From contig DASUHB010000038.1 of NCBI GenBank assembly GCA_036273715.1, forward strand, positions 1-64,000: a stretch of DNA of 64,000 nt, written 5' to 3'. The notes below the pieces were generated by a model that saw only the letters and a program-made list of their open reading frames with translations, was not told the DNA's origin and searched no databases. The DNA comes from Gemmatimonadaceae bacterium (GTDB lineage: Bacteria > Gemmatimonadota > Gemmatimonadetes > Gemmatimonadales > Gemmatimonadaceae). A program made the translations under genes and the position numbers. Below, in pieces: positions 5,527-9,670 of this stretch; within the stretch, counting starts at the first letter, position 1; each line of letters starts with the position of its first letter.

Positions 5527-6681
5527 TCACCCGGAACCAGCGGCCACTCCGTCACTTACAGCGGGCTCGGCGGTGCGAAATGTCCACAGGTCGTACTGGA
5601 TCACGATCCAGACCAGCAGACACGGCGCTTCTCGCAAGCCAACGAGCGTGAGAAGCACGAGCAGGGTGCGCCACAGCGTGCGCGGCGACATCGCGTACCA
5701 GAGCGCCACGCCCGTCACGGCAATCACGTACGACGGTCGCTCCGCCTGATGGTTGAACAACACCACGTACACGAGCAGCGAGCAGAGATAGAGTCGCAGA
5801 AATCTCGCGTCGTTCCACTGGCCCGGGCGCAGGACGAGCGGCGCCAGCAGGACGAGGGTGCCCGCGAGCTGCACCGGCCAGTTAGGCCACGAGCCGGGCA
5901 CGACGCCGGCCAACAATCCCATCGCCGAGGCGCCCCGGGCCAGCGCATCCACCGCCTCAATGTTCGCCCACCACTGGTACTGCTGCCGCAGCAGCGGCCA
6001 GGAGATGACGCCTAACGGAAGCGCGGCCAGCACGGCGCCCGCCACCACGATCCGCCAGCCGAACTTCCAGCGCGTCGACCGCGGCAGCGCCAAGGTCACC
6101 GCAGCGAGCGGGAAAATCTTGATCGCCGTACCGACGGCGACGGCGATGGCCGCCGCCGTCAATCGCGAGCGCTCGAGCGCCACGAACGCACACACAATGA
6201 GCGCGGCCACGAGCCCGTTCGACTGCGATGCCTGCGCGGACACGAACACTTCCGGCAGCACCACGATCGCGGCAATCGCCGCCTGGCGCCGCGGCAACAC
6301 CATCGCCACCGCGGCGAGCACGGCCAGCGCATTCGCGACATCCCACACGAGCAGCCCAACCGACGACGGCAGCAGCGCGAACGGCGCGAACAGGAGCGCG
6401 AACGTCGGACTGTACTTGAAGAAATCGTATCCCTGCGCCGGATCGCTCGCGTACAGATTGCGATGCGCAAGCAAGTGATAGAACGATTGCCGGAAGACGG
6501 GATACGTCCAGTGATGGTGCAGCGTGAACGTCCGCGTGAACCACGCGAGCGTTGCCGCGAGGACGTACGCCGCGATGAGCCATGGCATCGCGCGATCCAA
6601 CCACGCGGCGAGGTCCGTCCCGCCAAGGAACGACTCGCTCGCCGCCAACGGTTTGTCGTTGGACATCATTACACGCCGCAT
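5527..6681 (-). CDS. Glycosyltransferase family 87 (DUF2029)-like membrane protein
   Basis: This 384-aa polytopic membrane protein has about nine to ten hydrophobic helices. It matches the GT87 pattern of polyprenyl-phosphate-sugar-dependent mannosyltransferases. A long extracytoplasmic loop after the first helix contains RQSFYHLLAHRNLYASDP followed by FKYSPTFALLFAPFALLP, the typical YxYxP-like segment. Later, GTAIKIFPLAAV matches the conserved K-x-x-P block. The acceptor is unknown, probably an envelope glycolipid. Start alternatives are the first ATG or the ATG-ATG pair 12-15 nt inside. Its end lies about 75 nt before the DoxX-like start. Confidence 0.78.
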   Translation of the reverse strand: MRRVMMSNDKPLAASESFLGGTDLAAWLDRAMPWLIAAYVLAATLAWFTRTFTLHHHWTYPVFRQSFYHLLAHRNLYASDPAQGYDFFKYSPTFALLFAPFALLPSSVGLLVWDVANALAVLAAVAMVLPRRQAAIAAIVVLPEVFVSAQASQSNGLVAALIVCAFVALERSRLTAAAIAVAVGTAIKIFPLAAVTLALPRSTRWKFGWRIVVAGAVLAALPLGVISWPLLRQQYQWWANIEAVDALARGASAMGLLAGVVPGSWPNWPVQLAGTLVLLAPLVLRPGQWNDARFLRLYLCSLLVYVVLFNHQAERPSYVIAVTGVALWYAMSPRTLWRTLLVLLTLVGLREAPCLLVWIVIQYDLWTFRTAEPAVSDGVAAGSG

Positions 6682-6732
6682 CCCGCGTGGCCGGGGTTGC
6701 CGCGAACGTCACGCGGCGCGAGGTTGTCCGCC

Positions 6733-7065
6733 ATGGCCACCGTCGATGACTTCCTCACGCTCGACATCCGCGTCGGCACCGTCGTCGCGGCCGAGCCGTT
6801 TCCCGAAGCGCGAAAACCCGCGATCAAACTGCGCATCGATTTCGGGCCTGCGTTGGGCGTGAAACGATCGAGCGCCCAACTCACGGTCCATTATACACCG
6901 GAGCAACTCGTGGGACGGCAGGTCGTGGCCGTCGTGAATTTTCCTTCTCGTCGCATCGCCGGCTTCGAAAGCGACGTGCTGGTGCTCGGCGCCATGCCGA
7001 CGGAACGCGAGGTCATTCTGCTCTGCGTCGATCGCGCCGTCGACGACGGCACGCGCATCGGCTAG
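6733..7065 (+). CDS. csaA: CsaA-like tRNA-binding protein
   Basis: This 110-aa single-domain protein has the tRNA-binding OB fold found at the C-terminus of bacterial methionyl-tRNA synthetase. It contains DFLTLDIRVGTVVAAEPFPEAR, then KLRIDFGPALGVKRSSAQLT and VVNFPSRRIAGFESDVLVLG, all typical of stand-alone CsaA. CsaA homodimers bind tRNA and have a reported chaperone-like effect in protein export. The ATG at 6733 gives exactly the family length, although the frame is open further upstream over the divergent glycosyltransferase start. Confidence 0.9.
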   Translation: MATVDDFLTLDIRVGTVVAAEPFPEARKPAIKLRIDFGPALGVKRSSAQLTVHYTPEQLVGRQVVAVVNFPSRRIAGFESDVLVLGAMPTEREVILLCVDRAVDDGTRIG

Positions 7066-7089
7066 CACCGTACTCGGACCCGAACATCC

Positions 7090-7118
7090 TTGACACGGAC
7101 GCGGCTGCCGGATACTTG
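7090..7118 (+). promoter_or_regulatory. Candidate sigma-70 promoter for the cysteine leader/sulfurtransferase operon
   Basis: A perfect TTGACA (7090-7095) stands upstream of the cysteine leader ORF. Possible -10 elements are GATACT (7111-7116, spacing 15) or TACTTG (7113-7118, spacing 17); neither is strong. Transcription from here would start around 7123 and give a leader of about 240 nt before the sulfurtransferase gene. The -35 element is clear and the -10 uncertain. Confidence 0.5.
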
Positions 7119-7158
7119 TTGATTCATGGTGATGATGCAGTCGCGTAAGGATCAATCC

Positions 7159-7221
7159 ATGTGCGCATGTTGCCGGGCCGCCCATCGGTGGCCGGGCGGA
7201 TCCGCGCGTCGTCGCTGCTGA
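7159..7221 (+). CDS. Cysteine-rich leader peptide, 20 aa (putative attenuator uORF)
   Basis: An ATG-to-TGA reading frame encodes MCACCRAAHRWPGGSARRRC. Cysteines occupy positions 2, 4, 5 and 20, and Cys is otherwise rare here. An AAGGA ribosome-binding site (7147-7151) lies 7 nt before the ATG, so translation is plausible. The stop codon is 25 nt before a strong intrinsic terminator, and the first gene after that is a thiosulfate-type sulfurtransferase in an operon with cysteine synthase. By analogy with leader peptides of amino-acid operons, and with polycysteine leader ORFs described upstream of sulfur genes in mycobacteria, ribosome behaviour at these Cys codons probably reports cysteine supply. 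The regulatory function is inference; the frame, RBS and context are visible. Confidence 0.75.
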   Translation: MCACCRAAHRWPGGSARRRC

Positions 7222-7246
7222 CATCATCGTCGCAACGCGCATTCCG

Positions 7247-7278
7247 GCCGGTCGCTGAACGCAGCGGCCGGCTTTTTT
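7247..7278 (+). terminator. Intrinsic terminator in the sulfurtransferase leader (attenuator)
   Basis: An 11-bp GC-rich stem pairs 7247-7257 with 7262-7272 and contains one G-U pair. It is closed by a 4-nt loop (AACG) and followed directly by six T residues (7273-7278). This is one of the strongest terminator-like hairpins in the window. It stands between the cysteine leader ORF and the sulfurtransferase start at 7363, so it would block the operon unless prevented from forming. An antiterminator would have to use the GC-rich segment inside the leader ORF (7172-7200); I could not settle the pairing by eye. Confidence 0.88.
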
Positions 7279-7362
7279 GTCTCCGTCGAGCCCAACGCGA
7301 ACCATTTCCTGCGCGTCGGCGTTCGTCACCTGCACCTCTCACTCGAGCACGAGGACCGACCC

Positions 7363-8268
7363 ATGGCAACCGCGACCACACCCGCCGCCGCGCCGGACAA
7401 GACGATTCTGGCCAAGGGATACACCCATCCGGAACTGCTCGTCTCCACCGAATGGTTGGCGGCCAATCTCGACAATCCATCCATCCGCATCATTGAGAGC
7501 GACGAAGATGTGCTGCTCTACGACATGGGCCACATTCCGAACGCACAGAAAGTCGATTGGCACGCCGACCTCAACGATCCGATCGTGCGCGACTACGTCG
7601 ACCGCGAGCACTTCCAGGAGCTGCTCCGCTCGCGCGGCATCGACGATTCGAAAACGGTCGTCTTCTACGGCGACAAGAACAACTGGTGGGCCTGCTACGC
7701 GCTCTGGGTGTTCCGTCTCTTCGGATTCGAGAACGCGCGCGTGTTGGATGGCGGACGCGTGAAGTGGGAGCAGGAGGGGCGCCGGTTGATCGCCGATGTG
7801 CCGCACTTTCAGCGCAGCAACTACACCGCGCCCGAACGCAAGGACGCGCCCATTCGCGCGTTTCGCGAGGAGACGCTCAGCCACGCGAAGGCGGAGCTGC
7901 CGCTGATCGACGTCCGCTCGCCGGACGAATTCAGCGGTAAGAAAACGCACATGCCCGAATATCCGCAGGAAGGCGTGCTGCGCGGCGGACACATTCCGGG
8001 CGCCAAGAACGTTCCGTGGGCGCGCGCCGCGAATCCCGACGGCACCTTCAAGAGCGCCGATGAGTTGCGCAGCATCTACGAGAAGGAAGCGGGCCTCAAG
8101 CCGAGCGACGATGTGATCGCGTATTGCCGCATCGGCGAGCGTTCGTCGCACACCTGGTTCGTGCTCACGTATCTGTTAGGCTACGACAAAGTGCGCAACT
8201 ACGACGGGAGTTGGACCGAGTGGGGCAATTCCGTGCGCCTCCCGATCGAGAAAGGGGCGACCGCGTGA
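7363..8268 (+). CDS. Thiosulfate sulfurtransferase (rhodanese), CysA2/SseA-like
   Basis: This is a 301-aa two-domain rhodanese. The catalytic loop in the second domain reads [13 protein letters not shown] with the active Cys near residue 255; CRxGER is the thiosulfate-type loop, unlike the CG(S/T)GVT loop of mercaptopyruvate sulfurtransferases. The first domain has [19 protein letters not shown] and the second [15 protein letters not shown]. It transfers sulfane sulfur to thiol or cyanide acceptors in the cytosol. A GAGG site precedes the ATG. It is the first gene after the cysteine leader and terminator, and its TGA overlaps the GTG of the OsmC gene, so the sulfur genes form one operon. Confidence 0.93.
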
Positions 8269-8714
8269 CCGATCCGACGAGCGGAGCCGCACCGGCGGCC
8301 GTCGTGAAGCACAAGCCTAACCGCGTCGAGCTCGTGTGGCACGCGGAGCATCGCTTCACGGCCGGCCGGCCGGGCGGCCCAACGCTGCCGATCGATGGTG
8401 ACGGCATCACGGCGCCCGGGCCGGTGGACACGATGCTTTCTTCGCTGGCCGGCTGCGCATCCGTGGATGTGATCGACATTCTCGCCAAGCGACGCACGCC
8501 CATCCAGGCGCTGCGCGTCGAAGTCGTGGGCAGGCGCGTCGAGACGATTCCGCGCCGTTTGTCCCACGTGCTCCTCCGTTTCCACATCACCGCCCAGGGC
8601 CTCGATCGCGAGAACGCCGAGCGCGCCGTGCAGTTGTCGGTGGAGAAATACTGCTCGGTGCGCTCGTCGCTCGACCGCGACATTCCGGTCGAGTGGGAGG
8701 TGGAGCTGCACTGA
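8265..8714 (+). CDS. OsmC-family protein
   Basis: This 149-aa OsmC/Ohr-superfamily protein starts at a GTG overlapping the sulfurtransferase stop (GTGA), a coupling signal. Family features are [22 protein letters not shown] with the first reactive Cys, and a second Cys in [12 protein letters not shown] near the C-terminus. Such pairs serve in thiol peroxidase chemistry in characterised relatives, detoxifying organic hydroperoxides. The YhfA-like form here, placed between a sulfurtransferase and a cysteine synthase, suggests persulfide or thiol handling. The exact substrate is unknown. Confidence 0.88.
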
Positions 8715-8728
8715 GCCGGTCCGCTGCC

Positions 8729-9670
8729 ATGTCGACGATCGTCCATCCCACGGTCTCCTCCGCCATCGGCCGCACGCCGATGATCCGCCTCGAGCGCGTC
8801 GTGGAGCCGGACATGGCCGAAGTGTGGGTCAAAATGGAGGGGATGAATCCCGGGGGCTCGATCAAGGACCGGACTGCGTTAGGCATGGTGGTCGACGCCG
8901 AGCAGCGCGGCCTCCTGCACCCGGGCGGCACGATCGTCGAACCGACATCGGGTAACACCGGCGTGGGGCTCGCGCAGGTGGCCGCGGCCCGCGGCTACCG
9001 GCTCATCCTCTGCCTTCCGGCGCAGATGAGCGAAGAGCGCAAACGCACGCTCCTCGCGTACGGCGCCGAGCTCGTGCTCACCGATCCCGAACGGCGCATG
9101 CTCGCCGCCATCGAGGAAGCCGAGCGCATCCGCGACACCACCGGCGCCTGGATGCCTAACCAGTTCTCCAACCCGGCCAATCCGCGCGTGCACTATGACA
9201 CCACGGGCCCGGAGATCTGGGAGCAGATGGCCGGCCGCGTCGACGCGTTCGTGTACGGATCGGGCACCGGCGGCACGATCAGCGGCGTCGGCCGTTTTCT
9301 CAAGGAGCGCGACTCCCGCATCCAGGTGATCACCGTCGAACCCGCACGCTCGGCCGTGCTCAGTGGAGGAGCGCGCGGCGAGCATCGTTTTCAGGGCATG
9401 GGACCTGGCTTCATCCCGGACAACCTCGATCGTTCCGTCATCGATCGCGTCGTCACGGCGTGGGAGGAAGACGCGTTCCCGTTGGCGCGCCGGCTCGCAC
9501 GCGAGGAAGGATTGTTCGTCGGCATGTCGAGCGGCGCCATCGCGTTCTGGGCGCTGCGCATCGCGCGGGAGCTGGGTCCGGGGAAACGCGTCGCGATGAT
9601 CGCGCCGGACTCCGGGGCGCGGTACCTGTCGACGGCGTTGTTTGCGGAACCGGATCGCGCCGCGTCCTGA
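8729..9670 (+). CDS. cysK: Cysteine synthase (PLP-dependent O-acetylserine sulfhydrylase type)
   Basis: This 313-aa fold-type II PLP enzyme makes cysteine from an activated serine and sulfide. The PLP lysine is in MNPGGSIKDRTALGM, followed by the substrate loop EPTSGNTGVGLA. The phosphate-binding loop is YGSGTGGTISGVGRF, and the late GMSSGAIAF contributes to the PLP pocket. The length fits CysK/CysM. The ATG at 8729 is chosen because the conserved start HPTVSSAIGRTPMIRLERV follows immediately. It closes the sulfur operon 14 nt after the OsmC gene. A CysM- or CBS-like variant cannot be excluded. Confidence 0.92.
   Translation: MSTIVHPTVSSAIGRTPMIRLERVVEPDMAEVWVKMEGMNPGGSIKDRTALGMVVDAEQRGLLHPGGTIVEPTSGNTGVGLAQVAAARGYRLILCLPAQMSEERKRTLLAYGAELVLTDPERRMLAAIEEAERIRDTTGAWMPNQFSNPANPRVHYDTTGPEIWEQMAGRVDAFVYGSGTGGTISGVGRFLKERDSRIQVITVEPARSAVLSGGARGEHRFQGMGPGFIPDNLDRSVIDRVVTAWEEDAFPLARRLAREEGLFVGMSSGAIAFWALRIARELGPGKRVAMIAPDSGARYLSTALFAEPDRAAS

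Follow-up and report, generated by a model that had tools for sequence, protein, structure and literature searches.

In mycobacteria, leaderless Cys-rich open reading frames (ORFs) lie before cysA2 and other sulfur genes (Shell 2015, PMC4633059), and mycobacterial Cys leaders have been reported as cysteine-responsive attenuators (Canestrari 2020, as cited in PMC13236596 and PMC9094748). The cys leaders of mycobacteria have their run of Cys codons near the stop codon, with no conserved terminator hairpin detected (PMC1262725). A different arrangement is seen in uORFC-8-2, where tandem Cys codons in an upstream ORF are followed by an intrinsic terminator; it occurs exclusively before cysS in Rhodobacterales, and transcription attenuation was proposed for it (PMC8632094). 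In trp/his-type attenuators and in that of ilvB1 in M. tuberculosis (PMC13236596), the position of the ribosome picks the terminator or the antiterminator.

Here we describe a leader in a 64,000-nucleotide stretch of DNA from a Gemmatimonadaceae bacterium (the window) that, judging from sequence comparison and RNA folding, is probably (roughly 0.85) a cysteine-responsive, ribosome-mediated transcription attenuator of a sulfurtransferase–OsmC–cysK operon (Table 1). Like the mycobacterial polycysteine short ORFs, one of which precedes the thiosulfate sulfurtransferase gene cysA2, it is a Cys-rich and probably leaderless ORF 5′ of a sulfur operon. Unlike them, it comes with an intrinsic terminator and a predicted antiterminator, belongs to another phylum and precedes a gene nearer to sseA, whereas the mycobacterial mechanism is cited as translational (PMC13236596); 45 nt separate its Cys cluster from the stop codon, and one more Cys stands at the end of the ORF. 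It shares tandem Cys codons and a terminator with uORFC-8-2, although the likeness is one of logic only: the sequence is different, the downstream genes are sulfurtransferase, OsmC and cysK in Gemmatimonadota instead of cysS in Rhodobacterales, and uORFC-8-2 is not described as leaderless. The predicted choice between terminator and antiterminator by ribosome position is that of the trp/his-type and ilvB1 attenuators, from which the window leader would differ in sensing cysteine and in its probable leaderless start.

Table 1 Features of the leader and of the operon behind it, in window coordinates.
Feature	Position	Strand	Details and basis
Predicted promoter	7090–7118	+	−35 TTGACA (7090–7095), 17-nt spacer, weak −10 TACTTG (7113–7118); from sequence
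Leader ORF, probable true extent	7126–7221	+	MVMMQSRKDQSMCACCRAAHRWPGGSARRRC, then stop; probably leaderless
Shorter in-frame version of leader ORF (earlier note)	7159–7221	+	MCACCRAAHRWPGGSARRRC, then stop
1:2 hairpin (anti-antiterminator)	7159–7209	+	7159–7182 with 7187–7209, 21 bp; in MFE structure of full leader
Tandem Cys codons, proposed sensor	7168–7173	+	TGT TGC; from folds computed for a ribosome at each of the Cys codons
2:3 antiterminator	7185–7258	+	7185–7200/7243–7258, 15 bp, plus inner helix 7204–7209/7235–7240; MFE structure with ribosome at 7168 or 7171
3:4 intrinsic terminator	7246–7278	+	Stem 7246–7257/7262–7273, loop AACG, U-tract 7273–7278
Probable Shine–Dalgarno site of sulfurtransferase gene	7351–7355	+	GAGGA; from sequence, region conserved in congeners
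Sulfurtransferase, thiosulfate-type, first operon gene	7363–8268	+	Two rhodanese domains, PF00581
OsmC-family protein	8265–8714	+	PF02566; overlaps preceding stop
Cysteine synthase A (cysK)	8729–9670	+	TIGR01139, 428.9 bits (cut-off 351)

The three operon genes are as an earlier note, made from the sequence alone, had named them, with profile matches to each and that of the cysteine synthase over its cut-off. With cysK and a sulfurtransferase, the operon makes the amino acid that the leader would sense. The same note pointed to polycysteine leaders before similar sulfurtransferase genes in mycobacteria; such leaders are known before cysA2 (PMC4633059), but the window gene lies closer to another mycobacterial sulfurtransferase. 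The solved chains nearest to its product are sulfurtransferases and rhodaneses, and in sequence it is nearer to mycobacterial SseA (3hzu) than to 3hwi or 3aax, chains annotated as thiosulfate sulfurtransferase.

The leader ORF is probably longer than first described. The Cys-rich ORF from ATG 7159 is present as the earlier note reported it, with AAGGA 5–10 nt 5′ of its start, but it is probably the 3′ part of an ORF beginning 33 nt further upstream, as the frame stays open up to ATG 7126. Sequence comparison suggests that translation starts there without a leader rather than at a Shine–Dalgarno-led ATG 7159, because ATG 7126 sits where the transcript start is expected, 36 nt past the start of TTGACA (7090), and is kept in four congeners, whereas of these only L002 shares the AAGGA of the window's own leader (L001). 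The distance of 36 nt from −35 to ATG is the commonest value among relatives and is found in most of them. Although a strict promoter scan did not call the predicted promoter at 7090–7118, its TTGAC and TACTT are invariant across the five species of the genus. Besides the tandem pair, the ORF has Cys codons at 7162–7164 (TGC) and, last, at 7216–7218, directly before the stop codon at 7219; the leader thus has at least two codons for the amino acid concerned in a short ORF, and an intrinsic terminator stands between this ORF and the first gene. The GC hairpin with six Ts noted earlier is confirmed, beginning 24 nt past the ORF stop with a stem of 12 bp counting the outer G–U pair and 11 bp without it.

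Folding yields two mutually exclusive arrangements. The MFE structure of the full leader combines the 1:2 hairpin with the 3:4 terminator. When the A site holds either tandem Cys codon (7168 or 7171), the ribosome covers segment 1 and the best fold is the antiterminator, which the earlier note had proposed to look for and which consumes the terminator arm (−46.0 kcal/mol for the free RNA). Across Cys codons placed in the A site the predicted terminator probability of the window leader averages 0.37, with a lowest value of 0.24, and it is at least 0.98 with no ribosome or with one that has reached the stop codon. The exclusive pairing of antiterminator and terminator thus depends on the position of the ribosome, in a manner that is itself model-dependent and sensitive to the assumed footprint: with 13–14 nt covered past the start of the A-site codon, the antiterminator is favoured at both tandem Cys codons, and with 15–17 nt it is still favoured by a stall at 7168, whereas one at 7171 is undecided or gives the terminator. 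Of the Cys codons in the ORF, the tandem pair at 7168–7173 fits this role best in the model; the last one, at 7216, is an unlikely sensor because a ribosome stalled there is still predicted to leave the terminator formed.

Dinucleotide shuffles give a weaker duplex than the one predicted between the terminator's 5′ arm and the part of the ORF behind the Cys codons, with z = −4.0 in the window and a mean z of −1.35 over 38 leaders (P = 6 × 10−5, related loci included). The fraction of the terminator arm sequestered was discarded as a criterion, as it also reached about 0.7 in GC-rich shuffles and did not discriminate. Equilibrium folding keeps the terminator despite a stall in several relatives (for example, L030, L222, L231 and L273), and the predicted mechanism does not appear equally supported by folding across all leaders. 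A T-box or riboswitch was also considered and rejected for lack of a match to a curated RNA family, as an Rfam scan of 6600–7700 matched no family up to an E value of 1.

On this basis, we propose a transcript that begins at ATG 7126 or next to it, with a ribosome that would start at its very 5′ end. Given ample Cys-tRNA, the ribosome would get to the stop codon, the terminator would form and RNA polymerase would halt before the operon. With Cys-tRNA in short supply, it would stall at the tandem Cys codons and cover segment 1, so that segment 2 (7185–7200), freed, could pair with segment 3 (7243–7258); the 5′ arm of the terminator would then be taken up and the operon transcribed.

Comparison within the genus and beyond supports the attenuation reading of the earlier note, in that congeners conserve the Cys codons together with the terminator and the antiterminator, and Cys leaders with terminators recur in other families and in Chloroflexota. 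All five species of the genus retain the promoter, the ATG, the Cys cluster, the stop codon and the terminator. Averaged over pairs of species, identity rises from 55% in the 5′ part of the ORF to 73% in the Cys core and 95% across segment 2 (16 nt), and is 82% for the terminator. In the terminator stem, two pairs show compensatory changes in congeners, with both sides altered. The antiterminator has 98.5% of its alignment cells paired with hardly any variation, and we saw no covariation for it in the genus, where the almost invariant alignment speaks for conservation only.

Outside the genus, about 24 further Gemmatimonadota loci from other genera and families have a Cys leader before a sulfurtransferase gene, nearly always with a terminator. 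We also selected 24 Gemmatimonadota leaders by −35 element, first ATG or GTG, ORF and terminator, with cysteine not a criterion, and each has at least two Cys; cysteine accounts for 76 of their 641 residues (11.9%) compared to 3.6% in the two other frames. Eight terminators of this set were entered by hand, at loci first spotted by their Cys, and automatic terminator detection gives the same picture. A strict rule (a terminator no more than 95 nt away and at least three Cys in eight codons) is passed by 13 of 140 Gemmatimonadota loci and by none in three shuffles of each, and in Chloroflexota by 13 of 31 loci compared to about 2% of shuffles; this control is lenient, as shuffling destroys terminators too, yet no other rare residue came near such numbers. 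Most sulfurtransferase loci of Gemmatimonadota have no detectable leader, and the actinobacterial relatives of the sulfurtransferase that we examined have none with at least three clustered Cys. One genome with two sulfurtransferase copies has, before one of them, a leader of 60 codons of which 12 encode Cys (MTMHSSATSIRRLGTLRTLCGAARCRACCCVCGCACRFERCACCCARLRRSMRPESKLAP; L189, G019:C26).

Among other explanations, the one that fares best places the control in translation or in Rho-dependent polarity, with stalling altering the delivery of ribosomes or exposing RNA to Rho and the hairpin being incidental. Mycobacteria have sulfur genes preceded by leaderless ORFs rich in Cys (PMC4633059), the case of M. 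smegmatis is called translation attenuation (PMC13236596), and at one locus, L274, a Cys ORF before a sulfate-binding ABC protein has no U-tract terminator. We nevertheless consider this explanation unlikely, as a terminator with a U-tract 21–53 nt past the stop is common to the leaders, the 141 nt from the ORF stop of the window leader to the sulfurtransferase gene are far for coupling, and the Shine–Dalgarno site of that gene lies outside the predicted leader structures.

That the ORF encodes a functional Cys-rich micropeptide of the operon, for example one that binds metal or responds to redox state, with a terminator that only tunes expression, would explain why the stop codon is retained and why indels in the ORF of the five species come in multiples of three, which those past the stop do not. 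Against it, the peptides of relatives share little beyond their Cys codons, whose number and spacing vary (CxCC, CCxxxC, CCC and CxC), and the stretch kept best, which pairs with the terminator arm, hardly varies as DNA, making a micropeptide very improbable. Least probable of all is that a Cys-rich ORF lies by coincidence beside a hairpin that arose by chance or is just an ordinary terminator; the features are conserved among congeners and turn up again in other families and in Chloroflexota, which already disfavours this reading, even though both parts are common in the window sequence (ten ORFs of 8–45 codons with three Cys in five codons on the two strands of the 64 kb, and terminator-like sites in the region at chance level, with two found and 4.1 expected). 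Short ORFs rich in Cys are no rarity by themselves; it is the combination that goes beyond chance, together with its conservation.

The attenuator that we favour may not stand alone. Searches by pattern (TTGACA with a leaderless ATG and two or three Cys codons in a row), blind to the downstream gene, gave matches with a terminator behind them before sulfur-linked genes only, and in-frame Cys matches before non-sulfur genes, among those with a readable locus, had no terminator behind. An exact TTGACA search of the window's own genome, inspected by eye, found no other in-frame Cys leader. Elsewhere, the pattern searches found the L274 leader, a Cys leader before a NirA/sulfite-reductase-type gene (L273), and the leader MTRAQLPAMMCCCMCCMCQPAHGGAGA with a terminator before a RimK-like ATP-grasp gene followed by an SfnG/SsuD-like monooxygenase (L275), an uncharacterized pair with a probable link to sulfur metabolism. 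They also found, upstream of TauE/SafE permeases (PF01925) in five genomes (L284, L285, L287, L288 and L289), a conserved Cys leader (of the MHAAPLCRPVCCC... type) and a terminator, which suggests a role of these permeases in sulfur supply. Neither a sulfate-binding protein (TIGR00971) nor a homologue of the L273 NirA/Sir-type protein was found in the window's own genome, so this organism may take its sulfur from thiosulfate or sulfide instead of sulfate.

In Chloroflexota, sulfurtransferase genes in the order around L045 are preceded by Cys leaders with terminators, and one order of the phylum often has such leaders before its sulfurtransferases (L339–L346, L354–L357 and L369). Separately, several Gemmatimonadota have short ORFs rich in Leu, Val and Ile (for example, MNSLALLLLVVVLLLSLTLFRTGFAARAELTI) upstream of leuA (2-isopropylmalate synthase), most with a terminator after them (among loci L282, L324, L325, L327, L328 and L332); these probably act as attenuators for branched-chain amino acids, and some may have a leaderless start. 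We give even odds to a broader reading, in which leaderless ORFs with intrinsic terminators serve Gemmatimonadota and Chloroflexota generally for amino acid sensing: a phylum-wide Cys regulon (sulfurtransferase, sulfite-reductase-like, sulfate-binding, TauE/SafE and SfnG-like genes) would then stand beside a branched-chain regulon upstream of leuA, and the Cys leaders of Chloroflexota sulfurtransferases would belong to the same scheme.

The earlier suggestion of an undescribed variant holds for part of this. Cys leaders followed by a terminator are already known as such from uORFC-8-2 (PMC8632094), and attenuation of this kind is known; for a leaderless ORF with an intrinsic terminator, for its presence in Gemmatimonadota and Chloroflexota and for such a regulon, we found no description in the openly accessible literature that we searched. 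If our reading is true, cysteine attenuation extends to two poorly studied phyla, and the leaderless Cys ORFs of mycobacteria are linked with classical terminator-based attenuation. It would raise the question of how a ribosome that starts on leaderless RNA keeps pace with RNA polymerase for attenuation, and would provide a DNA signature by which cysteine- or sulfur-linked genes of unknown role, such as the RimK-like/SfnG-like pair and the TauE/SafE permeases, can be found.
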